Below are positions 5,896 to 35,030 of a stretch of DNA of 64,000 nt, piece by piece. How positions within the stretch are numbered: position 1 is the first letter of the stretch; each line of letters begins with the position of its first letter. The stretch covers positions 1 through 64,000 of the forward strand of contig JAKVCU010000054.1 in assembly GCA_022448955.1 (NCBI GenBank). The letters are read 5' to 3'. A program made the translations under genes and the position numbers. The notes beneath the pieces are model-generated. The model was given only the letters and a program-made list of their open reading frames with translations. It ran no database searches and was not told the origin of the DNA. This DNA is from Saprospiraceae bacterium. GTDB taxonomy: Bacteria; Bacteroidota; Bacteroidia; Chitinophagales; Saprospiraceae.

Positions 5896-7347
5896 ATGCA
5901 ACTAAAAAATCCAAATCTATTTAAAACTGATGCATATATAAATGGCCAGTGGACTTCAGCCGAAGCTGATCGAAGATTTTCAGTTATTAATCCATATAAT
6001 CAAGAAGCAATAACCCAAGTTCCAGATATGGGGGCTAAAGAGACAAAAAAAGCCATCGAAGCAGCCCAAGAAGCCTTACCTCGATGGAGAGCCATGACCA
6101 GCACGAAAAGGAGTCGAATTTTACGTAAGTGGCATGACCTCATCAGAACTAATACGGATGATCTTGCTCAAATCCTAACCATCGAACAGGGAAAACCATT
6201 TGCAGAAGCAAAAGGAGAAATTAAATACGGCGCGACTTTCGTCGAATGGTTTGCAGAAGAAGCTAAAAGAATCTACGGTGATGTTATTCCTCCGCACATG
6301 AGCAGCGCTAGAATTATAACGATAAAACAGCCTATAGGAGTCGTAGGTGCTATTACGCCTTGGAACTTTCCCAATGCTATGATTACGCGAAAAGTAGCCC
6401 CTGCTTTAGCAGCAGGCTGTACCGTAGTAATCAAACCAGCAGAAGCAACGCCACTCTCTGCATTGGCCTTAGCACAATTAGCTGAGGAAGCAGGATTCCC
6501 AGCAGGTGTCTTAAACATCATCACAGGACAAGATCCAAGTAAAATTGGAGAAGAGTTGACCTCCAACCCTATTGTTAGAAAGCTTTCCTTCACAGGTTCA
6601 ACTAGAGTAGGAAAACGCTTAATGAAACAATGTGCAGATACCGTGAAGAAAGTTTCACTAGAATTAGGAGGGAATGCACCTTTTATTGTTTTTGATGATG
6701 CAGATTTAGATTCAGCAGTAAAAGGCGCAATGGCTGCTAAATACAGAAATGCAGGCCAGACTTGTATCTGTGCAAACAGAATTTATGTACATACTTCTAT
6801 TTATGAGGAATTTACTCAAAAGTTAAGCGAGGCCACTCAGCAGTTAAAAGTAGGAAATGGATTAGAAAAAGGCACCGTAATTGGCCCATTGATCAATGAG
6901 CAAGCCGTAGCAAAAGTCAGTCGTTTACTAAGTAATGCCAAGGAAAAAGGCGCTGAAGTATTGACTGGAGGAAGTAATCATCAAGGTTTGTTTTTCCAAC
7001 CCACTGTTTTGAAAAACGTCCAAGCAGATATGGACTTGCATAAAGAAGAAATATTCGGTCCTATTGCAGCTGTGTACTCTTTCGATACAGAAGAGGAAGT
7101 CATCCAATTAGCAAATGATACCAACTATGGTCTTGCTGCTTATTTCTATGGAAAAGATTACGCGCGTATTTGGCGAGTAGCTGAAGCCTTGGAATATGGC
7201 ATGGTGGGTATCAATACAGGTGCCATCTCCACAACCCTAGCCCCGTTTGGAGGAATCAAAGAAAGTGGCATAGGCAGAGAAGGCTCCAAATATGGCATTG
7301 ATGAATACCTAGAAATAAAATATCTGTGCTACGGAGAAGTGGAATAA
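5896..7347 (+). CDS. gabD: NAD(P)-dependent succinate-semialdehyde dehydrogenase
   Basis: A 483-residue aldehyde dehydrogenase. It has the general base E256 in VSLELGGN and the nucleophile C290 in GQTCICANR. The cofactor motif FTGSTRVGK (232-240) and the IEQGKPFAEAKGEI stretch near residue 97 are typical of succinate-semialdehyde dehydrogenases. It oxidises succinate semialdehyde to succinate, feeding 4-aminobutyrate carbon into the TCA cycle; other aldehydes are possible. Cytosolic. No gabT (aminotransferase) is adjacent. It follows the GH130 gene by 112 bp on the same strand, without an obvious functional link. A long perfect inverted repeat follows the stop codon. Confidence 0.88.
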   Translation: MQLKNPNLFKTDAYINGQWTSAEADRRFSVINPYNQEAITQVPDMGAKETKKAIEAAQEALPRWRAMTSTKRSRILRKWHDLIRTNTDDLAQILTIEQGKPFAEAKGEIKYGATFVEWFAEEAKRIYGDVIPPHMSSARIITIKQPIGVVGAITPWNFPNAMITRKVAPALAAGCTVVIKPAEATPLSALALAQLAEEAGFPAGVLNIITGQDPSKIGEELTSNPIVRKLSFTGSTRVGKRLMKQCADTVKKVSLELGGNAPFIVFDDADLDSAVKGAMAAKYRNAGQTCICANRIYVHTSIYEEFTQKLSEATQQLKVGNGLEKGTVIGPLINEQAVAKVSRLLSNAKEKGAEVLTGGSNHQGLFFQPTVLKNVQADMDLHKEEIFGPIAAVYSFDTEEEVIQLANDTNYGLAAYFYGKDYARIWRVAEALEYGMVGINTGAISTTLAPFGGIKESGIGREGSKYGIDEYLEIKYLCYGEVE

Positions 7348-7365
7348 AATAAAAGCGATTCCAAG

Positions 7366-7415
7366 CAAATCATTTGACAACAATTGGACTTCGACCTTCT
7401 TTGTCAAATGATTTG
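7366..7415. repeat. Perfect 15-bp inverted repeat after gabD
   Basis: CAAATCATTTGACAA (7366-7380) and its exact complement (7401-7415) enclose a 20-nt spacer. No T-run follows on either side, so a rho-independent terminator is not obvious. It may be an mRNA-stabilising stem, a protein-binding palindrome or a repeat remnant. Confidence 0.6.
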
Positions 7416-7565
7416 TTAATGAATCATAATATGCTGTTAAAGCAATGCTTTAGGAAAGCTTCTTGATGATTTTTTCATCTATCTTACTGAACATCATTCA
7501 ATCACCATGGACACAGCTTATTGTAAATTTATATAATACGTTGGTGTCCGTTCTAAAACTATGTT

Positions 7566-8303
7566 ATGAAAACATTTTTTAAATGCTCTTTTCTACTGCC
7601 TTTTTTTGCTTTAACACTACTTACTTTTAGCGCAATTGGACAAGATCGCCCTGCAATGAACGACGTATATACACCTGCAGTGCCTACAGGACCTACAACT
7701 ACCGTTGAATTTGAGGAAGCTACACACGATTTTGGTACGATCAAAGAAGGAGAAATTGTAACACATGTGTTTACCTTTACGAATACCGGAGATGAAGTTT
7801 TAATTCTTACCAATGTAAAAGGAAGCTGTGGCTGTACAGTTCCACAATGGCCAAAAGATCCTATCGCTCCTGGCGAAACTGCATCCATTACGGTAAAATT
7901 CAACTCCAAGAATAAAAAAGGGAAGCGTAAGCAGAAAGTAACCATTTCTGCCAATACGAATCCAATACAATCCTTTTTATACTTGAAAGGAGAGGTTGAA
8001 CTCAGAGAAGGCGAAGAAGCTATCCCCGAAACCATCGCCAAGCTAAGCTCTGATTGTGTAGCCATTTACCCAAACCCAACTGCAGAAATTTTGAAATTAG
8101 ACATGCAGCCAGAGACCATTGGTCAAACTGCTATAATTTCTATCTTTTCGCAAACAGGCGCACTAATGGCTCAAAAAGAAATTGAATCAATCGAAGGTAC
8201 TATTGAGTTTAATGTCAACCACTACTCTGCTGGAACTTATTATGCCAAAATCCAAATCGGAGAACAGCAATTACCAGCACGTTGCTTCTTAGTCAATCGA
8301 TAA
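7566..8303 (+). CDS. DUF1573 protein with T9SS sorting domain
   Basis: A 245-residue secreted protein. Residues 1-25 are a signal peptide ending near FSAIGQ. A DUF1573 immunoglobulin-like domain spans about 45-140, with the typical HDFGTIKEGE, VFTFTNTGDEVLI and KGSCGCTVPQWPKDPIAPGE elements. Residues about 160-245 are a type A T9SS sorting domain, beginning YPNPTAEILKLD and including YSAGTYYAKIQ. It is expected to cross the outer membrane through the type IX system. The function of DUF1573 is unknown; it is widespread in Bacteroidota. The gene is monocistronic, with a hairpin just after the stop. Confidence 0.88.
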   Translation: MKTFFKCSFLLPFFALTLLTFSAIGQDRPAMNDVYTPAVPTGPTTTVEFEEATHDFGTIKEGEIVTHVFTFTNTGDEVLILTNVKGSCGCTVPQWPKDPIAPGETASITVKFNSKNKKGKRKQKVTISANTNPIQSFLYLKGEVELREGEEAIPETIAKLSSDCVAIYPNPTAEILKLDMQPETIGQTAIISIFSQTGALMAQKEIESIEGTIEFNVNHYSAGTYYAKIQIGEQQLPARCFLVNR

Positions 8304-8304
8304 A

Positions 8305-8335
8305 AAAGAGGCATCATCCTCAAAGGGGTGATGCC
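8305..8335. terminator. Bidirectional hairpin between convergent genes
   Basis: GGCATCATCC-tcaaa-GGGGTGATGCC, nearly perfect, preceded by AAAAAA on the plus strand. The T-run is therefore on the minus strand and would end transcripts of the formylglycine-generating-enzyme gene (8446-9465). It may also serve the DUF1573 gene. Confidence 0.6.
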
Positions 8336-8445
8336 ATCATTTCGTTTCAACTCAGCGCTAAATTTTAGCTTTTGCCGCTCAAAAAAGAGAAATTCAGTTT
8401 ATTTCTCATCTCTATATTGGCTAAAAGCTTTATTAAGATTTCTTT

Positions 8446-9465
8446 TTATTCGTCTTTCACACACCTAAAGCCAGTATGACTTAGGCCAGTATCAATGGTG
8501 GAGCCCATACGTCTGGCGTTTCGGTAGCCAGAGCAATATTGGTCATTGCATAAAAAAGAGCCGCCTCGAATGACTTTTTCTTGCTGGAAAGGCATCATTG
8601 GATTATAGCCCCTAGCTGGTCCTTTCGTATTGGCCTGACTAGCCGCTGATTGTCCGTAATAACTTACATCATACCAATCACTACACCATTCCCATACATT
8701 GCCAGCCATATCATACAAGCCATATTTATTCGGAGGAAAAGATTGTACAGGAGCAGTAGCAAAAAAGCCATCCTTCAAATGATTTTCATAAGGAAAAAGG
8801 CCTTGCCAAAAATTAGCTTTTGGTTTTCCCTCATCCACCTTTTCGTTTCCCCAAGGATAAATGGCATCTCTTTTGCCGCCTCTTGCCGCCCATTCCCATT
8901 CTGCCTCGGTGGGCAAACGTTTGCCGGCCCATTTGGCGTAAGCCACGGCATCTTCCCATGCTATGTGTACTACTGGATGATCCATTCGATCATCAATATT
9001 ACTACTAGGCCCTTCTGGATGCTGCCAATTAGCCCCTATTGTCCAGGCCCACCACTGCCCTGGGTTATCCAAACGAACGGGTTGATCCGTAGCTTGAAAA
9101 ACAAGCGCTCCTGCCTGTAGCAAGCTATCTGGTGGTTTGGGTGTATCAGGTGGAAGTTCCTTTTTCATTGCCTCCCAATTGATTGGCCTTTCGGCAATCG
9201 TTTGATAATTGGTTGCTTTCACAAATGTCATAAATTGTTGGTTGGTCACTTCTGTTTTATCCATCCAAAAAGCACTGATCTGAACCTCATGTTTTGGAAA
9301 TTCATTACGGTCTGCCTGCTCATTATCCCCACCCATATTTAAACGACCACTAGGGATTCTGATCATATTCTCCCTTTCGGGAAATGATGAGGTAGGCTTT
9401 TCAGATTGACAGGAAAAGAACAAAAAGGCCGTAACAAGAAGAAAAAAGATATGTATATACTTCAT
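8446..9465 (-). CDS. Formylglycine-generating enzyme family lipoprotein
   Basis: A 339-residue SUMF1/FGE-fold protein. The N-terminus is a lipoprotein signal peptide with lipobox LFFSC (acylated C19). Family landmarks are MDKTEVTNQQF, WEDAVAYAKWAGKRLPTEAE, YPWGNE, YDMAGNVWEWCSDWY and RGGSFLC. Unlike many FGE-fold proteins, which are structural, it keeps both cysteines of the copper-dependent active site in C306-x4-C311 spacing, matching my recollection of human FGE. True FGEs convert a sulfatase cysteine to formylglycine. A lipid-anchored copy would act on exported sulfatases, but no sulfatase is in the window. GldJ/GldK-type gliding proteins are relatives to exclude. Confidence 0.85.
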   Translation of the reverse strand: MKYIHIFFLLVTAFLFFSCQSEKPTSSFPERENMIRIPSGRLNMGGDNEQADRNEFPKHEVQISAFWMDKTEVTNQQFMTFVKATNYQTIAERPINWEAMKKELPPDTPKPPDSLLQAGALVFQATDQPVRLDNPGQWWAWTIGANWQHPEGPSSNIDDRMDHPVVHIAWEDAVAYAKWAGKRLPTEAEWEWAARGGKRDAIYPWGNEKVDEGKPKANFWQGLFPYENHLKDGFFATAPVQSFPPNKYGLYDMAGNVWEWCSDWYDVSYYGQSAASQANTKGPARGYNPMMPFQQEKVIRGGSFLCNDQYCSGYRNARRMGSTIDTGLSHTGFRCVKDE

Positions 9466-9520
9466 TATTCAATACTAAAAAACAGATGGTAAAAATTATA
9501 ATTTCTTACCCTAATTAAAT

Positions 9521-9660
9521 GCTAAGCAAAATTGCTTGTGCGATAAAATGGTCAGGCTAAAATAGTAATTTGCTGACAATAGGAAAGTAATGCAATTTTT
9601 TGGAAGGGCTCAAAGCTTTCAGCCTTTGGCTAAAATTTTATGGTACCAATATTTAAAGCT
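9521..9660 (+). repeat. Repeat family A copy
   Basis: Begins GCTAAGCAAAATTGCTTGTG, continues with a GACAATAGGAAAG segment and TTTTTGGAAGGG, and ends AAAATTTTATGGTACCAAT. This matches the order of blocks in the copy at 21511-21712. Little else lies in this intergenic stretch. Confidence 0.5.
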
Positions 9661-9727
9661 TACTACTGAAGTCATCTAGCAAATACTATATTAGTGTTCG
9701 TTTGGAATTTATTAATTACTATTGATT

Positions 9728-11371
9728 ATGTCAAAATATATTTTGCTTCTCCTAAGTTTATTCACATTTGCTGCATGTACAAATGAAAGCCAGCAAGCTG
9801 ACACATCAGAAAAACAAGCTTCTACTATGACTTCCTACACGGATCTAGAAGTATTATTTAACAATTGGCGAAAGTTTGAAAACCCACCACGGTTTGAAGG
9901 TGCTCCCGATTATCGAAAAAGTACTTTTGAAGCCAGAAGACCAAGCTTTGAAAACCTCCAAGCACAATTAATCGCTTTTGACACCAGTGCTTGGACTAGA
10001 GCCCAAAAAGTTGATTGGAAAATCATTTGGGCAGAGATGAATGGTTATGATTTCAACCAACGCATTTTAAAACCATGGGAACGAGATCCTGCCTTTTATA
10101 AATCTGTTTGGACACACCGAAGTGATGTACCTGCCCACGAAGGCCCTACCCATCACGCCACAACCGAGTTGTGGACCTATGAATTTCCGCTTTCTGATTC
10201 CGAAAAGAAAAGATTGATCGATGATTTGAAAGTTATTCCGGCACTCAATAAACAAGCGGAGTCCAACCTAACTGGAAATGCTAAAGATTTGTTCATCACT
10301 GGTATAAGAGATATCAAAAGCCAAAGTACCGTACTTCAAATATTGTTAAAAAGAGAAGGGGTAAGTGATGATCAAGAACTAAGTAAAGCAGTCAAAGATG
10401 CTATCCAGTCGACCAATACCTTTGTCAAATGGCTAGAAGAAGAGTCCAAAAAGAAAGATGGCCCATCAGGAATTGGCAAGGAAAATTACACTTGGTACTT
10501 AAAAAATGTTCACCTAGTACCATTAAGTTGGGAAGATGAGTTGATGATTCTCAAAAGAGAATTAGCTAGGGCATGGTCTTCTCTAAAACTAGAAGAACAT
10601 CGCAATAGGGCTTTACCGAAACTAGTTGCTGCAGATTCACCGGAAGCTTATAATCAGTTGGCAGAGATATCTGCACAGAGTATTATGAAGTTTCTGGAAG
10701 AAGAAGATATCGTTACTGTAAAGTCTTATTGGGATGCTGCTCTAAGAGAACATCTAGGAGCTTATGTACCTGAAGACATACGTAATTTTTTCTGGATTAC
10801 GGCACATTATGATCCCCGTCCATTGTATTCACATTTCTACCATTGGTTTGAATTGGCGCGCATGGATACAGAGCCCCATGCCAGTTTAATTAGGCGTGGG
10901 CCATTGTTGTATAATATTTTTGATTCTAGAAATGAAGGTGTTGCTACAGCAGTCGAAGAGTCCTTTATGCAAGCTGGATTGTATGACGATAATCCACGCG
11001 TCCGCGAAATTGTTTATATCATGATTGCACAACGAGCTGCTAGAGGTATTGGTTCACTTTATGCACATGCCAATGAAATGACGATGGAAGAAGCGGGAGG
11101 TATTCATTCTGAATATACCCCAAGAGGATGGATGAAAACAGAAAAGGAATTGCTCATTTTTGAACAACATCTGTATTTGCGTCAGCCTGGATATGGAACC
11201 AGTTATATCACAGGTAAATATCTTTTTGAAAATGCTATGGCTGAATATGCTAGAATGAAAGAAGCTCAAGGGGAAGAATTTACGACAAAGGAGTTTCTGG
11301 ATCGCTTAAATGCTATCGGCAATATTCCAATAGCCTTAGGTCATTATGAACTGACTGGAATAGAACAATAG
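9728..11371 (+). CDS. DUF885 family lipoprotein, probable metallopeptidase
   Basis: 547 residues from the ATG at 9728; a TTG two codons earlier is less likely because [17 protein letters not shown] is a complete lipoprotein leader (lipobox FAAC). The C-terminal two thirds has DUF885 features: [13 protein letters not shown], corresponding to the family's EGW-A-x-E region, and the [13 protein letters not shown] stretch. DUF885 proteins are thought to be zinc peptidases related to M32-like folds; the first metal histidine of the usual HEGW motif is N here, so activity is uncertain. It is likely tethered to the periplasmic or outer membrane. It is monocistronic and ends at a strong terminator. 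Confidence 0.8.
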
Positions 11372-18423: not shown

Positions 18424-18550
18424 GTATGTTTAAACTCTCTACTTCTTGAAAACGAAAGATTTAAAACGATAGCGTCCGATTGAATCAATTGATTAGTCCG
18501 CTAAATACCTTTATTAATGAATAGCTAGGACTTTAAAGGTTAATGGTCCT
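18424..18550 (+). repeat. Repeat family B copy (short)
   Basis: TATGTTTAAACTCTCTACTT, then TTGAAAACGAAAGATTTAAA and GCGTCCGATTGAATCAATTG, match the left two thirds of the full copies. The CCCTACC tail is absent. It separates the two kinase genes. Confidence 0.55.
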
Positions 18551-20341: not shown

Positions 20342-21509
20342 TTGTTTAATAAACTATGATATATTCACTAGGACTAAACAATTATCTAAATCGTTATGAG
20401 TCTCTATTTCGAGTTTATCAACGCCAAAATAAGGAAAAAGCAGTACAGTATATCACGGAACTTTTTCATGAAGGGAAGCATAATATAGAGTGGATGAACG
20501 AACGGATAGCCAAAATCAATTACCAGCAATTAAACCATTTTATTATTGTATCACCTTGGGATCACGATCCAGCGATTCGTGCAGTTCGCAAAGACATAAG
20601 CGTCTTGTTTGAGGGATGTGGAGAATATAAGGGCTTAATACTGGATGAAAGCGGTCATCGTAATATAGTAAAGAAGTCAGTTGGAGTGGCTCGTCAATAC
20701 TTGGGCAGTATTGGGAAAGTAGATAATGGACAGGTATCGGTATTTGCAGCATTAAGCCAAGGAGATGATGTAGGTAAGGTGGATATAAGATTATATCTTC
20801 CTAAGAGATGGAGCGAAGACAATAGGAGATGCAAAAAAGCTGGGATTCCCAAAAAGGATCAGGCTCATAAATCTAAAGCTGGACTAGCTCTACAGATGAT
20901 ACAGCAAATGAGAGGAGAAGTGAAGTATGATTGGGTTGAAGGAGATAGTATCTATGGAAATAGTAAGAATTTATGGCAAGGCTTACAACAACTTGAATAG
21001 CAATTTATAATAGATGTAGGAGAAAACCTATTGGTTTACACTCAAGCCCCGGCACCTTATATTCCATTATTGAAGCCAAGAAAAGGTAGAAAAAAGGGTA
21101 GTTATGTGAGTGATTTAGAACCCGTAAAGGCTAAGGATTTAGATGAACAGATAACAGATTTTCAGTGGAAAACATATACAATAAGACAAGGTACTAAAGG
21201 TCCTTTCATCCGAAAGGTAGTTGTTCTTGAAGTGTATGTGTGAAGTGCTAAGCGCCCTAGCAGTTCAAAGCTAAAAAACTAAGATTGATCATAAGCTGTA
21301 ATGAGGATGGCTCAGAAATTAAATACAGCTTGACCAATGACATTAGTTTAATGGAGACACCGCAGTTATCAGACTGGGGAGCCTTATATAGACAAATGCA
21401 AAGCTACTGGATAGAAAGAGGAATACAAAACTGTAAAGACAGTCTTGGAATGACCGATTATCAAGTTAGAGAATGGCGAGCATGGTATCACCAGATGACA
21501 AAGTAGTAT
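20342..21509 (+). mobile_element. Decayed IS701-family insertion sequence
   Basis: The region is occupied by one broken transposase gene. The left end lies between the kinase stop (20341) and the transposase start (20356). On the right, the transposase breaks off where repeat A begins (about 21511). Weak similarity between TTTAATAAACTATGATAT on the left and the complement of ATGACAAAGTAGTATTAAG on the right could be remnant terminal inverted repeats. No target-site duplication was found. The element should be immobile. Confidence 0.7.
20356..21506 (+). pseudogene. IS701-family DDE transposase, broken
   Basis: The first part (20356-21000, 214 codons) has the IS701 signature: LILDESGHRN with the first catalytic D, KKSVGVARQYLGSIGKVDNG, RLYLPKRW, AGIPKKDQAHKSKAGLAL and the second D in EGDSIYGN. 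A TAG at 20998-21000 interrupts the frame, which reopens in the same phase to 21243 (PLLKPRKGRKKG then GPFIRKVVVLEV). A stop and a frameshift around 21243-21285 move the reading to another phase, which continues GSEIKYSLTND to WRAWYHQMTK at 21506. Intact relatives continue for several dozen residues past the WHHHM-like motif. Nonsense, frameshift and 3' loss make it nonfunctional. Confidence 0.85.
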
Positions 21510-21510
21510 T

Positions 21511-21712
21511 AAGCGGCTAGACAAAATTGCTTGTATAATAAATTCCTGCCAGCCGGCAGGCACGGCGTCAGCTCATAAATCGTAAGTAACTGGCGATAGG
21601 AAATTTACGCATGATTTTTGAAGAGACGCTAAAACCTGCCTGCCTATGGCTGAATTTTATTGTACCAATTTGTGGCTGCTGGCAGGCACAGTTTCGGGCA
21701 AACTACTTAAGC
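21511..21712 (+). repeat. Repeat family A, full-length copy
   Basis: Reference copy: TAAGCGGCTAGACAAAATTG at the left, AAATCGTAAGTAACTGGCGA in the middle, TATGGCTGAATTTTATTGTA and GGGCAAACTACTTAAGCG at the right. Its left part matches 23534-23650 and its right part (from TGTACCAAT at 21661) matches 30495-30543. It abuts the truncated transposase. Confidence 0.65.
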
Positions 21713-21719
21713 GTATATA

Positions 21720-21835
21720 TAAATTTATACTACTTGAAAACTAAAGATTTGAAACGATGGCGCCTGATTGAATCAATTGATTAGCTAGCTAAGCATCTTT
21801 CTAAATCGATAGCCAGAACTTCAGATCGTTGATTC
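21720..21835 (+). repeat. Repeat family B copy (short)
   Basis: TTATACTACTTGAAAACTAA, then AGATTTGAAACGATGGCGCC and TGATTGAATCAATTGATTAG, closely match the copy at 18424-18550. It directly follows the family A copy. The 200 bp after it contain TATTTTTG at 21975-21982, a possible -7 element for the LytTR gene. Confidence 0.55.
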
Positions 21836-23533: not shown

Positions 23534-23650
23534 TAAGCGGCTAGTCAAAATTGCTTGTACATTAAAATTGTTCATTCGAAAATTAGAAGTAACTGACAAG
23601 AGGAAAGTGGCGCATGGTTTTTGAACGGACGTAAAGACCTATCTGCTATT
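23534..23650 (+). repeat. Repeat family A, left part only
   Basis: TAAGCGGCTAGTCAAAATTG, GAAGTAACTGACAAGAGGAA and GCGCATGGTTTTTGAACGGA follow the left three quarters of the full copy at 21511-21650. Similarity stops near 23650, where the open frame of the truncated CmlA-like gene begins. The missing right part is found at 30495-30543. Confidence 0.6.
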
Positions 23651-23673
23651 CTTTAGAAAGTGCCTACGAAAAA

Positions 23674-24978
23674 GTGCCGGATATTTTAAAAGGATACGTT
23701 GAGCTGGTATATGACCTGAATAATAACCCTTCTTATCGTTTTTTCGAGGCATTATTATATAACAGTGAATTCTACAACGACTCTCTTCAAAGTATCTCTA
23801 TGTGGATCACTGAAAACGACGATCGTCCTTTTGTGCTAAGTACTCCCAGGGTCGATGACGAAAACACATTGCATCTCGAAATCCCTTTCAGCCATAATTT
23901 TATTGACGCTGTGAGTCGTATGAAACGCGAAGGGGGATTCGTCAGTAAAGTTCGTTCTTTAATTGACCTAGACAAGAAGCAAGAGAAGGTTTTTAACACC
24001 TTTTTTACTGAAACCCCGCCCCCGCCCTATGAAAAATACGAGGGAGATAAAGTACGGATGCGTTACTTCGGCCACGCTTGCATACTGATCGAAACCAAAG
24101 ATGTCAGCGTCCTGGTAGATCCTTTAGTCAGTTACTACGGCTATCAGCACGAAGTTTCCCGTTTTTCCGATATGGATTTGCCGGACACGATTGATTATGT
24201 GCTCATCACACATAATCATCAGGACCATATTCTTTTTGAAACCTTATTACCACTGCGGCATAAGATCAAAAACGTCATCGTCCCCGGTTCAAATACCGGT
24301 TCTTTGCAAGACCCGAGTTTAAAACTGATGTTCAAGCAAATTGGTTTTAATCAGGTAATCGAGTTGAGAGAGATGGAAAGTGTGGAAATGACAGACGCAA
24401 TCATCACCGGTATCCCCTTCATAGGAGAACATAGTGATCTTAATATTCAATCCAAGTTGTGCTACCACATGCAAATAGGGGAATTTAAAATCCTCTTTGT
24501 AGCGGATTCCTGCAATATCGAATCTCGATTGTATGACCATATTCATAAAATTGTGGGCGATGTCGACTTGATATTTTTAGGGATGGAATGCGACGGAGCG
24601 CCATTAACCTGGCTATACGGGCCACTACTCACCGAGGACTTATCGAGAGAAAAGGATAGCTCCCGGCGGCTGGCGGGTTCCAATTACGAGCGAGGCAAAG
24701 CCCTGGTAAAGACTTTCCATCCGAAGGAAGTATACGTCTATGCGATGGGCATGGAACCATGGTTAAAATTCATCAGCAGTATCAAGTATACCGACGAGTC
24801 CAATCCGATTATTGCTTCAAATAAATTGGTGGCATATTGCGAAGATCAGGGACTCATTGCCGAACGCCTTTTCGGCGAAAAAGAATTGCTTTACAACAGT
24901 ACCTTGGACGAAGTCGATATAGAGCCAATCTTGAATAACAGGTTCGGACCATTCCTTACCAGTGATTTACATGTTTAA
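23674..24978 (+). CDS. CmlA-like diiron beta-hydroxylase, N-terminally truncated
   Basis: Metallo-beta-lactamase-fold protein. From the GTG at 23674 it has 434 residues; the frame stays open back to 23635 with no ATG. Metal ligands visible are H180-x-H182-x-D184-H185, E252 in IGEHSDL, D278 in FVADSC and probably H349. In CmlA of chloramphenicol biosynthesis I recall ligands H305, H307, D309, H310, E377 and D403; each equals the position here plus 125. The family uses a carboxylate-bridged diiron site to hydroxylate the beta-carbon of an amino acid tethered to an NRPS carrier domain. About 110-125 residues of the N-terminal dimerisation domain are missing, so function is doubtful. Repeat A abuts the cut end. 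Confidence 0.78.
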   Translation: MPDILKGYVELVYDLNNNPSYRFFEALLYNSEFYNDSLQSISMWITENDDRPFVLSTPRVDDENTLHLEIPFSHNFIDAVSRMKREGGFVSKVRSLIDLDKKQEKVFNTFFTETPPPPYEKYEGDKVRMRYFGHACILIETKDVSVLVDPLVSYYGYQHEVSRFSDMDLPDTIDYVLITHNHQDHILFETLLPLRHKIKNVIVPGSNTGSLQDPSLKLMFKQIGFNQVIELREMESVEMTDAIITGIPFIGEHSDLNIQSKLCYHMQIGEFKILFVADSCNIESRLYDHIHKIVGDVDLIFLGMECDGAPLTWLYGPLLTEDLSREKDSSRRLAGSNYERGKALVKTFHPKEVYVYAMGMEPWLKFISSIKYTDESNPIIASNKLVAYCEDQGLIAERLFGEKELLYNSTLDEVDIEPILNNRFGPFLTSDLHV

Positions 24979-25149
24979 ACTCGCTGCTAAGGAATTGTTT
25001 CCAATATTTTTTCACTTAAAAGGAAGCCAATTTTTGCCAAATAGGTCTTAAAACCACAAAATGAGACGTCTTAAAAGGCGATTTGAGGCGATAAGATTGA
25101 ATATAGGGCGCACTTTTACACCATTATAATAATTAAACAAGCCTTGATT

Positions 25150-27576
25150 ATGAAATATTTTAGACTTACTTTTTTTCTACTGGTGGCTGTACTGACCACC
25201 GGGTTTTCACAAAATTCTAACGGAAAGGTAACTGGTCGTGTACTAGAAAACCAAAGCAATCCCCTCCCTTACGCGGTGATTAAATTATTCGTGGTTTCTG
25301 ATTCGAACATGATACAGGGAACTATCGCTGGAGATCAAGGATTGTTTGAATTATCTCAGGTAGCTGATAATACTTATTATATAGAAGTTTCGAATTTGGG
25401 TTATGAACCTGCTCGAAGTGAAGTGTTCGAAGTTAAAAACGGAGCTACTGTACAACTTCCCGATATGGTCTTGTCGCTTCAGGATCAGTTACTGGAAACT
25501 GTAGTCATCACTTCTCAACGCCCCCTGCTCGAAGTCAAAACGGATATGACGGTGGTCAATGTCAACGAAAACATGACTTCCGCCGGAGAAGATGCGATGG
25601 ATCTGTTGCAAATGGTCCCGGGTGTATTGACAATCAATGACCGGATCAAGATGAACGGTAAATCGAACGTCAAGATTATGATAAACGGTAAGGTGACTAA
25701 GATGGATGCTCAGAGTTTAGCGATATTTTTGCGGTCTATTTCCGGTACTTCCATCCTAAAAATAGAGATGATTACGAATCCGTCGGCGCGCTACGACGCA
25801 GATGGTAATTCAGGAATTCTTAATATCGTTTTAAAAAAATCAGGGGCTTTAGGTACCAAAGCAAGTATCCTGACTAAATATAGCCGGGGCATCAATTATA
25901 TCTTCAACCCATCCTTCGACATTACCCACAGGGCCGAAAAAATGACGCTCTATGGAGCATTAGCCTACCACGACGGCAAATATCAGGAAGATACTGATAT
26001 GAAGCGGTTGGTAACGACCAGTGACGGAGTAAAGAATTTCGATCAGTCGAACAAAAATGTAACTGACTGGGGTAGTCCGAGCTTTAGGGCGGGAGCAGAT
26101 TTTTTCCTCAACCCTAAAAACACTATTGGTTTGCTGGCTTACGGTTCCTTGAGCGATTATGTACAAAACAATTTAACTCAGACCTCTATCAGTAATCAAG
26201 AAAACTTTATCGATTCCAGCCTTATCGCTACCAATCGAGGCCCTACTGATAAATTATGGGCGGATTTTAACTTCTATTATAATTACAAAGATACGCTTGG
26301 TACAGAATTCAAATTCGATACGGACTATTACGGTTATATCATGAACGGTATCAATACGGTCATGAACGATTTGTTCGATAGTCAAGGCGCCAAGTATAAC
26401 ACCATTGGCAATATTTACGATACCGAAACCACCATTGATATCTTCTCAGTAAAAGCCGATTATATCAAGGCGTTCAATGATGATTCAAAGTTTGAGGCGG
26501 GGCTGAAGGTAGCGCTTGTAAATGCAGATAACGACTTGATGGCTGATATCTTACAGGACGGTGTTCAGGAAACAGATTTCGGTCAGTCCAACAGATTTAT
26601 TTACAATGAGGATGTTTACGCCGGGTATTTAAATTATAGTACAAAATTCAATAAAGTAGGTATTCAGGTAGGTGTGCGTTCAGAATTCACCGATGTTAAA
26701 GGTTCATCTACCGACTTATTGGGTAATCAAATCAATAATCCGGATACTTCGTACCTCAATTTCTTCCCTTCTGCTTTTCTGACCTACGATCTGGCGCCAA
26801 AGCATATGTTGAAAGCTTCTTACAGCCGCCGTATCAACCGGCCGAATTACCAGGATATGAACCCTTTCGAATATCGATTGGATCAATATACGAGTGAAGT
26901 AGGAAATCCATTTTTGCGTCCGCAATACACCGACAATTTTGAATTTGGTTATGTATACCAAAGTGCTGCTTCCCTGACCTTTTCTTATACCAACACACAA
27001 GACTTTTTTGCTCCGATCACCACTCAGGAAGGACAAAGGACTTTCTTGACTACAGAGAATATCGAACAGATGGAGGATTATAGTATAAAGTTGAATTTAC
27101 CGCTTCCGATAAGCCAGGCGATCTACGGTTTTGCCTGGGTAGGGGTTTACAAGAGTGTATTTCAGGGAGAACTGGACGGTTTTCCTTTGGATGCCGGCCA
27201 GTGGAGCCTTAATGCTTATGCTGAAACCAGTTTCAAGTTTAAAGGTAACCTGAGGTTCAAACTCTCAGGCTGGTATAATGCGCCGAAAAGGAGTGTGATT
27301 TTTGAAGAATCAAGCACCGGCAGCGTCAGCACCTCAGTGAGTAAGAGCTTTTTCGAAAAACGCCTCTACGTGAGTCTTACTTACAGTGATATCTTCAATA
27401 CGCAGCGGTGGAAATCCGAGGTCAATTTCGGAGACATGCGTATTAATCTCCACCGAACTTGGGAGAGCAACCGGGTTGGAATCAATGTACGCTATGTATT
27501 TGGAAATACTAAACTTAAAAAGCAAGCGAAACGAAACGCTGCCAACGATGCAGAACAGAACCGGGTCAAATCTTAA
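25150..27576 (+). CDS. Outer-membrane beta-barrel receptor, TonB-dependent-receptor type
   Basis: 808 residues from the ATG at 25150; a TTG two codons earlier would add two residues before the signal peptide. The leader ends near TTGFSQ. A carboxypeptidase-regulatory-like domain (about 24-110, GKVTGRVLENQSNPLPYAVI) is followed by a plug-like domain (about 115-225, DAMDLLQMVPGVLTIND) and a large barrel of outer-membrane beta-barrel type (PKHMLKASYSRRINRPNYQD is typical). No TonB box was identified with confidence. Such receptors import siderophores, peptides or sugars. Within the island it may have served uptake of the cluster's product, but that is inference. It lies 171 bp after the CmlA-like gene. 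Confidence 0.85.
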   Translation: MKYFRLTFFLLVAVLTTGFSQNSNGKVTGRVLENQSNPLPYAVIKLFVVSDSNMIQGTIAGDQGLFELSQVADNTYYIEVSNLGYEPARSEVFEVKNGATVQLPDMVLSLQDQLLETVVITSQRPLLEVKTDMTVVNVNENMTSAGEDAMDLLQMVPGVLTINDRIKMNGKSNVKIMINGKVTKMDAQSLAIFLRSISGTSILKIEMITNPSARYDADGNSGILNIVLKKSGALGTKASILTKYSRGINYIFNPSFDITHRAEKMTLYGALAYHDGKYQEDTDMKRLVTTSDGVKNFDQSNKNVTDWGSPSFRAGADFFLNPKNTIGLLAYGSLSDYVQNNLTQTSISNQENFIDSSLIATNRGPTDKLWADFNFYYNYKDTLGTEFKFDTDYYGYIMNGINTVMNDLFDSQGAKYNTIGNIYDTETTIDIFSVKADYIKAFNDDSKFEAGLKVALVNADNDLMADILQDGVQETDFGQSNRFIYNEDVYAGYLNYSTKFNKVGIQVGVRSEFTDVKGSSTDLLGNQINNPDTSYLNFFPSAFLTYDLAPKHMLKASYSRRINRPNYQDMNPFEYRLDQYTSEVGNPFLRPQYTDNFEFGYVYQSAASLTFSYTNTQDFFAPITTQEGQRTFLTTENIEQMEDYSIKLNLPLPISQAIYGFAWVGVYKSVFQGELDGFPLDAGQWSLNAYAETSFKFKGNLRFKLSGWYNAPKRSVIFEESSTGSVSTSVSKSFFEKRLYVSLTYSDIFNTQRWKSEVNFGDMRINLHRTWESNRVGINVRYVFGNTKLKKQAKRNAANDAEQNRVKS

Positions 27577-27649
27577 AGAAGAGGCGAATTGCCCGGTATT
27601 CGTGGATGTTAAGAGGTTGTTTTAATTTTGCTTTTGAGCCGATGGCGAG

Positions 27650-27734
27650 CAAATATTGTTCTGAACGAGGCCGAAGGAGAGAACATAGCCTAAGCTACAT
27701 GACCGACGCACAACGAAGTGCAGAACAATATTTG
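27650..27734. repeat. Palindromic intergenic element inside the island
   Basis: CAAATATTGTTCTG (27650-27663) and its exact complement (27721-27734) bracket a 57-bp GC-richer spacer. GCCGATGG occurs beside both arms. It lies in the 247-bp gap between the receptor and DUF2807 genes. A 65-codon frame through it is probably not coding. No copy was noticed elsewhere in the window. Confidence 0.5.
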
Positions 27735-27823
27735 CCGATGGTAGGCCGAAGTGTAAAGTTTAAACAAGCTCTCAAGGATCGGGACAAAGAAAGCTTTATT
27801 TGAAATAGAAAAATAAAAATACC

Positions 27824-28741
27824 ATGACTCTAACAAAAATTCTTTTAGCCATCGGTTTATTCGCAGGGGTGGTGGCCCTCGTCGCTGGGCAGTCCAACGG
27901 AGCAGTATATGGCAACGGTACGATTGTCACCAAGGACCACGCTGTGAAAATGTTTACTTCTTTAACTGTAGAAACAGTGGCGCAAGTAGATGTTGAACTG
28001 CAAACCATGCCCTACGTTACGATTGTTGCTGACGAAAACCTTCTCCAATACCTAAAAGTAGAGGCGAATGGGAATCAGTTACGAATTTCTCCCACAACAT
28101 GGATAGAACCTTCTCGAAAAATTAGAATTAAAGTGGGGACTGCTTTTTTAAAATACCTGGAACCACACGGCTACGGGGAATATATCGTCCAGAAAATCAA
28201 CACGACTCCTTTTGAAGTTAATAACACAGTCTCAAGTGTATATTTGTATGGGGAGACGGATGATTTGATCTTAACGACCGGTAAGGGAAAAATTGACGCT
28301 TCCGAAGTGAAAGCACAAAACGTCATCGTAAAGATTGAAGGCAGGGCTAAAGTAACGGTAGATCCGCAGCAGTCACTCCAGGCAGAGATCAATGGCCGGG
28401 GTAAAGTCATTTACCTCAACGAGCCGGAATTGGTCAGTAAAACCATCGAAGGAGATGGGCAGGTAGTAAAAAAAGGAGAAATTCCCGTTAAAGCCCCCCC
28501 CACTCCCGTAGAATTTATAAAATGTAAAATCATCAATAATCGGATCTCCTTCACGAGTGTCTTAATAGAGGGGCCGGAAGAGCGGCAATTTAGTTACGGG
28601 TCTGATTTTGGGCCCTTCGAAGCAAAAAATAAAAACCTGCCTGCAGGGACTCGCATTTACAAGGTAGGAGCCGATGGAAAAAAGAAAGAACTGCTGCAAA
28701 TTAGTAGTTGGGATAAAGGAAGGCAGTTAAAATTATTCTAG
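27824..28741 (+). CDS. DUF2807 (GIN-domain) exported protein
   Basis: 305 residues. A signal peptide (1-22) ends VALVAGQ. Residues about 30-215 form a DUF2807/GIN-type beta-helix head: GNGTIVTKDHAVKMFTSLTV, VTIVADENLLQYLKVEANGN, LRISPTTW and later GKGKIDASEVKAQNV-like rungs. The last 70 residues are not recognised. DUF2807 proteins are periplasmic or surface proteins of unknown role in Bacteroidota and are often annotated as putative adhesin heads. It is 247 bp downstream of the receptor and on the same strand. Base use matches the island. Confidence 0.8.
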   Translation: MTLTKILLAIGLFAGVVALVAGQSNGAVYGNGTIVTKDHAVKMFTSLTVETVAQVDVELQTMPYVTIVADENLLQYLKVEANGNQLRISPTTWIEPSRKIRIKVGTAFLKYLEPHGYGEYIVQKINTTPFEVNNTVSSVYLYGETDDLILTTGKGKIDASEVKAQNVIVKIEGRAKVTVDPQQSLQAEINGRGKVIYLNEPELVSKTIEGDGQVVKKGEIPVKAPPTPVEFIKCKIINNRISFTSVLIEGPEERQFSYGSDFGPFEAKNKNLPAGTRIYKVGADGKKKELLQISSWDKGRQLKLF

Positions 28742-28977
28742 TGGCACAAGAGCTAAGCAGCTTATAGTTTAGGCGATGTTTTTAAAATTCAGTGCCTGTG
28801 CGATACTGGGTCAGGCTTTTGCATCTGCCATATCCGAGAACACCATATAGATACCATTTACCATCAGGAGTCCTCTCAACTGACATTTGAGGACTCCTTT
28901 TTTCTCACTGATATCTCCCTTTTGACAATAACCGTGTGTGGAGTTTGTTATCGATCCAGAAGATATTATATTGTAGA

Positions 28978-30132
28978 ATGCAAGTAGAGTTTAACATTTA
29001 TTCGGTACCATTGCTATTTGGTTTTTGGCATGGACTTTTGTTCACGACCTTGCTGTATATCAGAGGGTTCCGACAGGAGCGGTTGTCGGATTATTTATTG
29101 GCTACCTTGCTATTATTGGCCAGCATATATATCATGCCTTACATGCTGGGATTTATGAATGTGTCTGTCATGTGGGATGAATTATTATTCTTTCCCACTG
29201 ATCCGGGCCTGTTAATCGGACCGGTGATTTACTTCTATCTGATCACCCAGACCAACCAGGATTTTCAGTTTTCCCGGAAAGACTTCTGGCATCTGCTACT
29301 ATTTGCTATTTATTTTTTCTACCACTTGGTTATTTTTGTGCAAGGAAAGGATATGGTGCAGTGGTGGATTCACAATGTCGATTCACTTTATGTTGAACCT
29401 GCTATAAAAGTCATAACTTTAGCTGCCAATTATTATTATTTATACATTTCTATGCGATATTATCGACGCTATCGTTCTTGGGTAGAAAGCACTTATGCCG
29501 ATCCGGAACCAATCCAGTTTAGGTGGTACCGCAATTTTCTTTATTTGATGGGAGCCTCCATTACCTTGTCCTGGTCTTTTGCTGCGCTGAACGAATTGGG
29601 TGCTCAGTTAAGTTATACCCAGAATTGGTGGGAATATTTCTTTATCGCTATTTTGGTGTACTTATTAAGCTTGTTTGGTTTTACCCAGAACCAGAGGACT
29701 TTACTTTTTTTTGATAAAAATATTCAAAGCGAGGCTCAAGAAAAAAATAATATACAAGACAAAATAACCAACCAAGAATTGGCGACCTGGAGAGATAAAA
29801 TTCAGCAGTTTTTAACAGACGACAAAATCTATCTCCAACCGGAATTAAGCTTGATCGATATGGCAGATCGCCTGGAGATAAGCAGTAATATGTTGTCACA
29901 GTATATCAATCTTGGCTTTGGAATAAATTTTAAACAGCTAATCAATGATTTTCGGATCGGAGAGTTTAAAAAGGAGGTGGTTAAAGAAAGTAACAGCCAC
30001 ATGACATTATTGGCTATCGCCATGAATTGCGGATTTAATTCCAAAGCTACTTTTAACCGGGTTTTTAAAAAATCTACGGGCCTGTCTCCCCGGGAATACA
30101 TCGATCAGGCCAAATCGGATTCAACCTCTTAG
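28978..30132 (+). CDS. Membrane-bound AraC-family transcriptional regulator
   Basis: 384 residues from the ATG at 28978; a GTG 14 codons earlier is possible but adds a polar leader. The N-terminal 250 residues hold about seven hydrophobic helices (for example VPLLFGFWHGLLFTTLLYI and WWEYFFIAILVYLLSLFGF). The C-terminal 100 residues are an AraC-type double helix-turn-helix: LIDMADRLEISSNMLSQYIN and GFNSKATFNRVFKKSTGLSP. This 7TM-AraC arrangement is common in Bacteroidota, where such regulators sense an envelope or extracellular ligand. Immediately upstream of the NRPS start, it could control the lost synthetase genes. Targets are otherwise unknown. Confidence 0.85.
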   Translation: MQVEFNIYSVPLLFGFWHGLLFTTLLYIRGFRQERLSDYLLATLLLLASIYIMPYMLGFMNVSVMWDELLFFPTDPGLLIGPVIYFYLITQTNQDFQFSRKDFWHLLLFAIYFFYHLVIFVQGKDMVQWWIHNVDSLYVEPAIKVITLAANYYYLYISMRYYRRYRSWVESTYADPEPIQFRWYRNFLYLMGASITLSWSFAALNELGAQLSYTQNWWEYFFIAILVYLLSLFGFTQNQRTLLFFDKNIQSEAQEKNNIQDKITNQELATWRDKIQQFLTDDKIYLQPELSLIDMADRLEISSNMLSQYINLGFGINFKQLINDFRIGEFKKEVVKESNSHMTLLAIAMNCGFNSKATFNRVFKKSTGLSPREYIDQAKSDSTS

Positions 30133-30179
30133 CGCCTTCGCCACCAGGTATACTAATAACAAAATGAAGTCAACTAAAT

Positions 30180-30461
30180 ATGAGCAATAAAACCGACACA
30201 CCCCCCGATTTCCTTAGTGAAATCCCAAAGGTGTCCGACCAAGATAGTTATGAACTCTCTCCAGCGCAGATGGGGAATTGGCTGATGAATACTTACCTCA
30301 AGAACCCCGGCCCTTTCAATTCCTGTATCCTCTCGACAATTCCGGAACTACATGTAGGTATTTTTATGGAAGCCCTGGAAACGCTGATCAAGCGGCACGA
30401 GATATTACTGAATACCTTTACCCTGGAAGCCGGTACCCCCCGGGTGGTAACTACTTTGTAG
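30180..30461 (+). pseudogene. Nonribosomal peptide synthetase, N-terminal condensation-domain fragment
   Basis: 93 codons. YELSPAQMGNWLMNTYLKNP, then GPFNSCILSTI and FMEALETLIKRHEILLNTF, match the first beta-strand and helices of an NRPS condensation domain (the C1/C2 region). The catalytic HHxxxDG motif should follow but is absent: the frame ends at 30461 and repeat A starts about 34 bp later. The gene starts 48 bp after the AraC regulator, a spacing typical of a co-transcribed gene. It is a remnant of a much larger synthetase. Confidence 0.7.
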
Positions 30462-30494
30462 TCAGTCTTGTATCTCTTTTCAGGAAAGCCCTAG

Positions 30495-30543
30495 TGTACC
30501 AATCCCAGCCTGCCTCCATGCACGCTTTGGGCCAAACTACTTA
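30495..30543 (+). repeat. Repeat family A, right part only
   Basis: TGTACCAAT, then TGCACGCTTTGGGCCAAACT and ACTTAG, match 21661-21709 of the full copy (TGTACCAAT ... GGGCAAACTACTTAAG). This is the part missing from 23534-23650. The following 170 bp to the tRNA terminator show nothing else. Confidence 0.55.
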
Positions 30544-30752: not shown

Positions 30753-30762
30753 ATTTAACTTG

Positions 30763-30837
30763 TCGGGGCGGCAGGATTCGAACCTGCGACCCCCTGCTCC
30801 CAAAGCAGGTGCGCTAACCGGACTGCGCTACGCCCCG
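30763..30837 (-). tRNA. tRNA-Pro (anticodon TGG)
   Basis: On the minus strand the acceptor stem CGGGGCG pairs with CGCCCCG. The anticodon arm is CCTGC-TTTGGGA-GCAGG, with TGG in the loop, and the T-arm contains GGTTCGAATCC. 75 nt including the discriminator A; the 3' CCA is not encoded. It is followed by a rho-independent terminator. Confidence 0.95.
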
Positions 30838-30974
30838 ATGTGCATTTTTAATTTTAATGCGCGGCGAAGATAAAAGTAGAATTTATTTTTTCAAAGAAAC
30901 TTTTACTTTTTTTTCAACTTTTTTTCAGTTGTGCTCGCCTTTAAAATCTAGAGTACTTTTTACCCTGAAAAAAA

Positions 30975-31066
30975 TGGCGGTGACGGCGGGATTCGAACCC
31001 GCGGTACCCCGATAAGAGTACGTCGGTTTAGCAAACCGGTGGTTTCAGCCACTCACCCACGTCACC
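30975..31066 (-). tRNA. tRNA-Ser (anticodon GCT)
   Basis: On the minus strand the acceptor stem is GGTGACG/CGTCACC. The anticodon arm is CCGGTTTGCTAAACCG with GCT. A long variable arm (CGTACTCTTATCGGGGTACCG) identifies a class II serine tRNA, and the T-arm contains GGTTCGAATCC. A 3' CCA appears to be encoded (30975-30977), unlike tRNA-Pro next to it. It reads A/U-third serine codons AGC/AGU. Confidence 0.95.
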
Positions 31067-31237: not shown

Positions 31238-32674
31238 TTATTTGTCATTCAAGCTGAGCTTGATTTTCTTCTCTAGTTCTGTAACCGTATCTTTAAAAAT
31301 AGCATTTGTTTCCATTAAATCTTGAACCGTTCTACAAGAATAGATTACGGTACTATGATCACGGCCACCAAAATTCTCACCAATCGATTTTAAAGATTTA
31401 TCCGTTAAGTTTTTAGCTAGATACATCGATAATTGTCTAGCAATCACAATAGAACGTTTACGGGTCTTTCCTTGTAGCTTTTCCGGTTGAATGTCGAAGT
31501 GGTCTGCCACCAGTTTTTGGATAAAGTCAACAGTAATCTCCTTATTGATCTCAGTGACGAAATTTTTAACCACCTCCTTGGCCAAGTCTACATCCATCTC
31601 TCGGCGATTTAAAGAAGACTGAGCAATCAAGGACACCAACACCCCTTCTAATTCTCTGATATTATTTTGAATATTGAAACAAATAAACTCAACCACATCC
31701 TGGGATATCTCCACCCCTTCCCTATTCATCTTTGCCTCAAGGATAGCAATCCTAGTCTCCAAATCTGGTGCTTGTAAATCTGCAGATAATCCCCACTTAA
31801 AACGAGAGATCAGCCGCTCTTCCATTCCATCCAAATCTTTTGGCGCACGATCAGAAGTTAAGATGATTTGCTTACCATTTTGGTGTAACTGATTAAAAAT
31901 ATGAAAGAAGATCTCTTGCGTTTTTTGTTTGTTTGCTAAAAACTGAATATCATCAACGATAAGTACGTCAATCAATTGATAAAAGTTGACAAAATCGTTA
32001 ACGGCATTATTCTTTATGGATTGAATAATTTGATTCGTGAATTTTTCTGAAGAAACGTAAAGGACTGTTTTATCGGGAAACTTCTCTAATACATCATTCC
32101 CTATTGCTTGGGCTAAATGTGTTTTTCCTAGGCCTACCTCTCCAAATACTACAAGTGGATTGAAGGAAGTACCCCCTGGCTTTTTGGCTATAGCCAAACC
32201 AGCAGAACGTGCCAGACGATTACAATCACCCTCAATATAATTTTCAAAACGATAGTTTTGATTCAATTGTGGATCGATTTTCACCTTCCTAATTCCAGGA
32301 ATAATGAATGGATTTTTGATATTAGCTGTACTAACGGTACCTGGCCCCATACCATTACTCGATCCCTTGTTAGCTCCAACGCTTACACCTGCATCCTCCT
32401 TTTTTCTACGACTATTAGCGTTCGCCATTAATATCTGATACTCTAGGCGTCCTTTGTCACCTAGCTCAGTCCTTATGGTTCTCTTAAGAAGTGAAACATA
32501 ATGCTCTTCTAACCACTCGTAGAAAAATTTATTGGGTACTTGTATCGTCAGTGCATTATTCTCTAATCGAACCGGACGGATAGGTTCAAACCAAGTTCTA
32601 TAGCTCTGAGCAGGTACGTTTCTACGAATGGATTGAAGACAGTTATCCCATACTGTAGTACAATCGTTTACCAT
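31238..32674 (-). CDS. dnaA: Chromosomal replication initiator DnaA
   Basis: 478 residues, full length. Domain I (1-90) has the CLQSIRRNVPAQSYRTWFEP start. A variable linker follows (about 95-130). The AAA+ domain (about 140-345) carries Walker A GEVGLGKTHLAQ, Walker B VLIVDDIQFL and sensor/arginine-finger elements around ILTSDRAPKDLDGMEERLIS. Domain IV (about 370-478) ends with the DnaA-box-binding signature GGRDHSTVIYSCRTVQDLM. It binds DnaA boxes as ATP-DnaA and opens oriC. dnaN is not adjacent, and no DnaA-box cluster is evident near the gene, so oriC is probably elsewhere or unrecognised. Confidence 0.97.
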   Translation of the reverse strand: MVNDCTTVWDNCLQSIRRNVPAQSYRTWFEPIRPVRLENNALTIQVPNKFFYEWLEEHYVSLLKRTIRTELGDKGRLEYQILMANANSRRKKEDAGVSVGANKGSSNGMGPGTVSTANIKNPFIIPGIRKVKIDPQLNQNYRFENYIEGDCNRLARSAGLAIAKKPGGTSFNPLVVFGEVGLGKTHLAQAIGNDVLEKFPDKTVLYVSSEKFTNQIIQSIKNNAVNDFVNFYQLIDVLIVDDIQFLANKQKTQEIFFHIFNQLHQNGKQIILTSDRAPKDLDGMEERLISRFKWGLSADLQAPDLETRIAILEAKMNREGVEISQDVVEFICFNIQNNIRELEGVLVSLIAQSSLNRREMDVDLAKEVVKNFVTEINKEITVDFIQKLVADHFDIQPEKLQGKTRKRSIVIARQLSMYLAKNLTDKSLKSIGENFGGRDHSTVIYSCRTVQDLMETNAIFKDTVTELEKKIKLSLNDK

Positions 32675-34705: not shown

Positions 34706-34754
34706 CTCTATACTTTTTATTTTTTAAACCAGCTCGTAAGTAGTAAATCTAGAA

Positions 34755-34873
34755 CCTGTTAGCCTCTGGCTGGAATTGGCAACACAAAATTTCAGCCAAT
34801 GGCTGAGAGGTTTACATCGGATAAAAGCCATGCTCAACTTTACTATCGTCAGCTTCTTACGATTTTTGAACTA
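34755..34873 (-). repeat. Repeat family A copy
   Basis: On the minus strand the blocks AAATCGTAAGAAGCTGACGA, GAGCATGGC, CATTGGCTGAAATTTTG and CCAATTCCAGCC follow the order seen at 21577-21680. The right-end AAACTACTTA block is not present. The element is intact through the position where the island interrupts the copy at 23.65 kb. Confidence 0.5.
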
Positions 34874-34874
34874 G

Positions 34875-35030
34875 CACACTATAATCTAAATTACTTAGCA
34901 TTTTGAAGGCGTCTTTTCACTCAGCTCTGCCTTGCGTACCCGCCTTAACAGCTATGCCTTAGGCTCCGCCGCACCTTTAGCTGAGCAAAATCAGCTGGTT
35001 CAAAATTACAATAAACTTAAATTACAGTTT
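34875..35030 (+). repeat. Repeat family C, long form
   Basis: ACACTATAATCTAAATTACT at the left and AATAAACTTAAATTACAG at the right are imperfect inverted repeats. Flanks match 57451-57545 nearly base for base (CATTTTGAAGGCGTCTTTTC; CAGCTGGTTCAAAATTACAA). This copy has about 70 extra internal bases containing CTCCGCCGCACC, bounded by CAGCT on both sides, which the other copy lacks. Confidence 0.65.

Follow-up and report, generated by a model that had tools for sequence, protein, structure and literature searches.

Biosynthetic clusters acquired from other organisms often come with the machinery that moves them, or have decayed until they can no longer be read. The locus presented here appears to be a capture without mobility genes that can be dissected base by base, since its junctions, truncations and a foreign-type palindrome are still legible. 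Among the described systems, homology-facilitated illegitimate recombination (HFIR) of transformable bacteria is close to it: foreign linear DNA becomes joined to a chromosome, a junction shows scarcely any homology or none, and some host DNA is lost. In the HFIR events described in PMC3240628, there is one homologous anchor, the deletion is generally about the size of the insert (on average about 1 kb each) and the junctions mostly carry 3-10 bp of microhomology. In contrast to the events of that account, the locus presented here combines a 6.8 kb insert with a loss of about 8-12 nt, which was measured within a repeat, and no anchor was found: apart from the repeat itself, the compared host DNA (31% of the genome) showed no homology to either end. 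In the cases of IS insertion into REP described in PMC1525189, a dispersed intergenic palindrome is likewise the interrupted target; unlike those cases, our locus shows neither an IS or transposase nor a target duplication, and the cargo is a truncated biosynthetic fragment. In addition, NRPS clusters with a CmlA-type beta-hydroxylase are found in other Bacteroidota with the same five genes in the same order, whereas here the piece is cut at both ends. The event is of a known kind and this is a new example of it.

In the present study, we analysed a window of 64,000 nucleotides from the draft genome of a Saprospiraceae bacterium (GCA_022448955.1, contig JAKVCU010000054.1, positions 1 to 64,000), in which a dispersed repeat, family A, is interrupted by 6.84 kb of gene-bearing DNA (Table 1). 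A reading made from the sequence alone had placed the end of the left repeat part near 23650 and the start of the right part near 30495. A family-A profile of 200 positions, built from 52 full host copies, matched 23535-23647 and 30492-30543 on the same strand, and it is confirmed that the two are parts of one dispersed palindromic repeat copy. When the joined parts were aligned with 81 full copies, the best four had 83-84% identity with net 8 nt missing, or about 12 nt if three Cs beside the right part are counted as filler, in agreement with the earlier estimate of at most about 10 bp. The sequence-only reading had also held that the join rebuilds the copy seen at 21511-21712. The joined halves do give a full copy, but the one at 21511 has extra modules and copies of 178 nt, the length of the template for the 84% join, fit better. 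Of 19 full copies whose left part is of the GTTCATTCG type, 13 had the right-end type of the split copy, against 26 of all 66; this linkage of subtypes is only moderate and gives mild support for one original copy. In the predicted fold of nine copies of 176-179 nt, the break falls, as placed by eye, within the third hairpin, in its distal stem and its loop. Dating of the event by the divergence of the two halves was also tried and was uninformative, as both lie within the range of ordinary copies (left half at the 45th percentile of full copies, right half at the 12.5th).

Table 1. Positions of the split repeat copy, the genes between its halves and the neighbouring features in the window
Feature	Position	Strand	Detail
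Intact family-A copy, long version with extra GC-rich modules (reference)	21511-21712	+	Profile positions 1-200, 201.6 bits
Family-A repeat, left part of split copy	23535-23649	+	Profile positions 1-134 of 200, 94.9 bits; right edge 23647/23649
cmlA-type diiron beta-hydroxylase (metallo-beta-lactamase fold), 5'-truncated	23650-24978	+	CmlA_N from position 109/112 of 232; 71-75% to nearest uncut relatives
TonB-dependent-receptor-like outer-membrane protein, open ORF	25150-27576	+	OMP_b-brl_3, E 1.7e-93; 43% to L177 and L184, same order
Long imperfect palindrome, 167 nt, unrelated to family A	27609-27775		Between receptor and DUF2807 genes; inverted arms 71% complementary
DUF2807 (head GIN domain) protein, open ORF	27824-28741	+	E 1.5e-22; same position in L177 and L184
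AraC-family regulator, open ORF	28936-30132	+	HTH_18, E 3.8e-15; 53% to L177, 50% to L184
NRPS condensation-domain gene, first ~90 codons	30180-30447	+	Condensation positions 2-72 of 456; frame stops at 30459-30461
Unassigned junction sequence, about 40 nt	30448-30488		No match >13 nt in 2.0 Mb host DNA, nor 10 nt in L086/L087/L177
Family-A repeat, right part of split copy	30489-30543	+	Profile positions 149-200, 19.9 bits; left edge 30489/30492
tRNA-Pro and tRNA-Ser genes	30762-31066	-	Downstream of right junction; junction outside tRNA gene

Family A is an abundant, almost wholly intergenic repeat of this host. A 25-base pattern from the repeat start gave 255 matches (up to 3 mismatches) in the 6.4 Mb genome against none for the reversed control, and the copy at 21511-21712 used as query gave at least 68 matches including itself (best 40 of 395 candidates scored). 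The 2.0 Mb of host DNA analysed (31% of the genome) contained 150 pieces, of which 81 were full copies, 40 left parts, 24 right parts and 5 middle parts; the density of about 75 per Mb extrapolates to about 480 pieces genome-wide. A subset of 1.65 Mb held 122 of them (66 full, 33 left, 20 right, 3 middle), and only 0.9% of the repeat bases were inside ORFs of at least 120 aa, whereas such ORFs cover 84.6% of the sampled sequence. In structure, family A is an imperfect palindrome whose GC-rich modules, optional or swappable, are predicted to form hairpins; some units stand in tandem 136 bp apart, and a further copy in the window lies at 34737-34878. High copy number, extragenic position and palindromic structure make the family REP/MITE-like. 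The mobilising enzyme of REP is RAYT, and that of a MITE is the parent IS. Covariation for the repeat fold was weak (two-sided change in 3 of 43 pairs, covariation term +0.62), so no functional RNA is claimed. A DNA search did not find family A in a congener (G001, 89% complete, 660 contigs). Among 398 genomes of the family, with two candidates scored per genome, three others had a match of 29-36 nt at E 1e-5; one of them (L063, from G223) is by eye a diverged full-length relative, and family A is therefore not strictly confined to the host species. Neither the repeat family nor the locus was named among the matches listed in a literature search.

The sequence-only reading would have been weakened by repeat halves that occur alone, and isolated halves do exist, which counts against it. 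Many of the partial pieces are diverged variants, have internal deletions or lie at contig ends, but on visual inspection about six to nine of the left and five to nine of the right pieces in the 1.65 Mb look like true orphans. These orphans allow another history, in which a whole NRPS island was once present together with two separate copies of family A; two deletions, each with one end in a repeat copy, would then have left only the middle piece between two halves. The missing parts of the cluster must have stayed behind somewhere, and the roughly 40 nt unassigned at the right edge may be the scar of a deletion. However, this history needs two independent breaks on one strand, at repeat positions (134 and 149) that complement each other, and the genome has no other CmlA_N or condensation match. 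Among the 150 pieces in 2.0 Mb, no other left and right piece lay on the same strand within 20 kb of each other with cuts that are complementary (0-20 profile positions apart). When 15 left and 9 right partial pieces were placed uniformly at random in 1.65 Mb, a complementary same-strand pair within 0.2-7 kb arose in 7% of cases and any same-strand left-right pair, whatever the cuts, in 23%; both figures are generous to chance, as the observed pair and variants with internal deletions are counted in the set. Furthermore, both halves coincide with the cut frames of one foreign cluster, and a single event would therefore be more likely still. Overall, we regard the two-deletion history as unlikely. 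Before overlaps were resolved, six left-right pairs lay within 15 kb; two of them, on C188 (profile 62 to 117, 228 nt apart) and on C185 (154 to 18, 8.1 kb apart), were not complementary, and both disappeared once antisense overlaps were removed.

The genes between the halves had been read as cut at both ends, and the domain searches agree with this. The cmlA frame begins abruptly at SLESAY, where the relatives mostly have GYSLE..Y or similar, and with a metallo-beta-lactamase domain but an incomplete CmlA_N the protein is a truncated member of the CmlA type (PF18456). The condensation match (26.4 and 23.8 bits) is short and under the Pfam cut-off of 30.6; its identification rests on the 51-53% identity of the piece to the stand-alone condensation genes of two collinear clusters (L177 and L184). 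By eye, the similarity extends up to about GTPRVV and is followed by a few codons to the stop. An NRPS cluster has condensation, adenylation and carrier modules; the block has one partial condensation domain, and no adenylation or carrier domain was seen in its five proteins by Pfam. The block is a fragment of an NRPS cluster and not a cluster. None of the four long frames is interrupted by a stop. In a simulation of neutral drift, 1% change gave 2.7 expected new stops (probability of no stop 0.05), and 5% change gave 13 expected stops, with none of 300 runs free of a stop. Either the event would therefore be recent or the genes would be in use, with the receptor and regulator under selection.

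The same five genes in the same order were found uncut in an uncultured Cytophagales MAG (L177; identities of 75, 43, 31, 53 and 52%) and likewise in a Lewinella MAG, also uncultured (L184, the contig of G024/L086; 71, 43, 35, 50 and 51%), and only in these two among the best 80 of 453 relatives. In both clusters, NRPS modules lie upstream. With the AraC protein as query (E 1e-50) in 396 genomes of the order, only G024 exceeded 40% identity, the host itself aside. The best protein identities among the matches listed (75, 43, 31, 53 and 52%) do not mark a donor, and the GC of the two closest cluster loci is 53-61% versus about 42% in the block. We infer that the donor was another Bacteroidota, probably another Saprospiraceae. 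A relative with the same cluster complete beside dnaA would have spoken against a capture at this place; no dnaA match was present in 88 cluster loci, partly overlapping and 3.8-21 kb each. As to the layout of the two uncut clusters, the gap from the AraC to the condensation gene is only about 0.4 kb in the Cytophagales MAG, and in the Lewinella MAG (L086) a starch-synthase-like gene (6839-8647) and an alpha-amylase-like gene (8365-10338) stand between the two.

The block also contains a palindrome of a non-host type. The predicted DNA fold of 27600-27790 has -27.3 kcal/mol (z -2.85). In a search that scored two candidates per genome, and so reports presence and not copy number, 67 other genomes among the 398 searched had a match to the palindrome; in 16 of these genomes it extended over at least 100 nt, and the best had 86% identity over 163 bp (G195). 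This palindrome family is common to many genera of the host family. In 1.65 Mb of host DNA, there was one strong copy plus one weak match of 54 nt. As the palindrome is common in the family and the host has one strong copy, a donor in the same family is indicated; this pointer from sequence would hold although the closest protein relative found is the Cytophagales MAG. The loci around the palindromes of relatives (L268-L278, 2.2-3.2 kb) contained none of the genes of the block, and six contigs of G195 sampled without knowledge of the hit (C1-C6, 77 kb) contained no copy.

The sequence-only reading had called the block more GC-rich and foreign. The GC part stands in comparison with the 9 kb to the left (0.39-0.44 per kb against 0.29-0.37), but values up to 0.42 also occur in kilobases elsewhere in the window, so that GC alone is weak. 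The overall GC of the AraC gene, 0.387, is at the 57th percentile and ordinary for the host. Third-position GC and codon usage are stronger evidence. Among 1031 ORFs of 450 nt or more, with the block's own included, the GC3 of the four long genes (0.44-0.49 versus a median of 0.31) was at the 99.6-99.9th percentile, and in codon-usage distance they ranked at the 96-99th percentile when compared with ORFs of like length. These findings bear out the check by codon usage and GC suggested with that reading: the codon usage of the block is foreign. A recent duplication from elsewhere in the same genome was considered and rejected. With the block as DNA query, no second match was found in the genome except the repeat (best 40 of 336 candidates scored). 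CmlA_N and the condensation domain (here partial) were likewise matched only once each in the genome, in the block.

At the left junction, the sequence reads TCTGC|TATTCT. A donor with GGC-TAT-TCT, as in several relatives, joined to the repeat end TCTGC would give the observed TCTGCTATTCT with an overlap of 2 nt; with these presumed donor bases, at most 2-4 nt of microhomology would be possible. There is no target duplication, as bases of the repeat were lost and not duplicated, and there is no inverted match between the ends of the block beyond 7 nt. No transposase or integrase domain was found in its five proteins by Pfam. Ku is absent, which makes classical Ku end joining unlikely. Taken together, the missing mobility domain, the ends without inverted match, the lost target bases, the small overlap and the absence of Ku make up the anatomy of illegitimate joining. 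The earlier claim of a clean capture without an integrase stands in so far as there is no mobility domain, the codon usage is foreign and collinear uncut clusters exist, but it is not clean in the strict sense: about 8-12 nt of the repeat are lost and about 40 nt are extra at the right. The sequence 30448-30488 begins with TAACTACTT; perhaps by chance, many family-A copies have the same letters close to their 3' end.

An insertion by a mobile element whose own genes have since been lost, either an integrase island beside tRNA-Pro or the cargo of a transposon or IS, would fit the tRNA-Pro gene about 220 bp from the right junction, and palindromic repeats are known as IS targets in the cases of PMC1525189. 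Nevertheless, for an integrase-type island there is no integrase domain in the five proteins, and the junction lies outside the tRNA gene at that distance. For transposon or IS cargo, no transposase domain in the five proteins, no terminal inverted repeat and no target duplication was found. Both ends also cut reading frames, and we judge such an insertion very improbable.

An assembly chimera at a repeat was weighed as well, as the genome is a draft of 230 contigs with 1.47% estimated contamination and many contigs begin inside family A. Against it, the halves share exactly no more than 29 nt (left) and 20 nt (right) with other host DNA (1.65 Mb and single loci), so that only very short overlaps would be available for a false path through the repeat, and the repeat/cmlA and filler/repeat joins are themselves unique in the same DNA. 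We consider a chimera extremely improbable. Regarding the draft as a whole, many contigs start within 100 bases of a family-A copy (at least C10, C15, C25, C36, C72, C95, C103, C123, C180 and C188), and the repeat is therefore probably behind many of its assembly breaks.

The collinear uncut clusters, the sole CmlA_N and condensation matches, the foreign codon usage and the missing mobility domain best support a foreign capture in one repeat, and we consider it likely that a fragment of a foreign NRPS cluster was inserted illegitimately into one family-A copy. A linear cluster fragment from another Bacteroidota would have entered the cell and been joined into one dispersed palindromic repeat between a response-regulator gene and the tRNA-Pro/dnaA region (dnaA at 31238-32674, beyond the tRNA genes). 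The joining would have been illegitimate, with no integrase or transposase, no target duplication and no more than 2-4 nt of possible microhomology at the left; it would have cost about 8-12 nt of the repeat and left filler of about 40 nt on the right side. The DNA may be supposed to have arrived in one event as a single fragment, with break repair or transformation without homology as the route. No empty site was found, and for this reason the mechanism and the order, insertion and not later deletion, are what we infer. In the congener G001, the dnaA contig (L085) ends just beyond dnaA, and the tRNA-Pro contig (L158) was without clear synteny, with only a 37% match to one protein of the window.

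The combination of open genes for receptor and regulator with biosynthetic ends that are dead makes it testable whether a non-producer can keep a peptide receptor. It is conceivable, though quite improbable, that the palindromic repeats of the host serve as weak landing sites for incoming DNA, where hairpins extruded by the repeat are cut near a loop and foreign ends are joined, and that the receptor, DUF2807 and AraC genes are kept as an orphan system for uptake or sensing. If this were true, a genome with several hundred such repeats would gain neutral intergenic docking points, and the trio would serve a peptide that the cell cannot make. Elsewhere in the window, a 101-nt direct repeat (79%; 18433-18533 and 21721-21821) brackets a TPR-protein gene, a DDE_5 transposase-like fragment and the intact family-A copy of Table 1; the coordinates 20356-21000 belong with this region, which bears the DDE_5 fragment and the TPR-protein gene.
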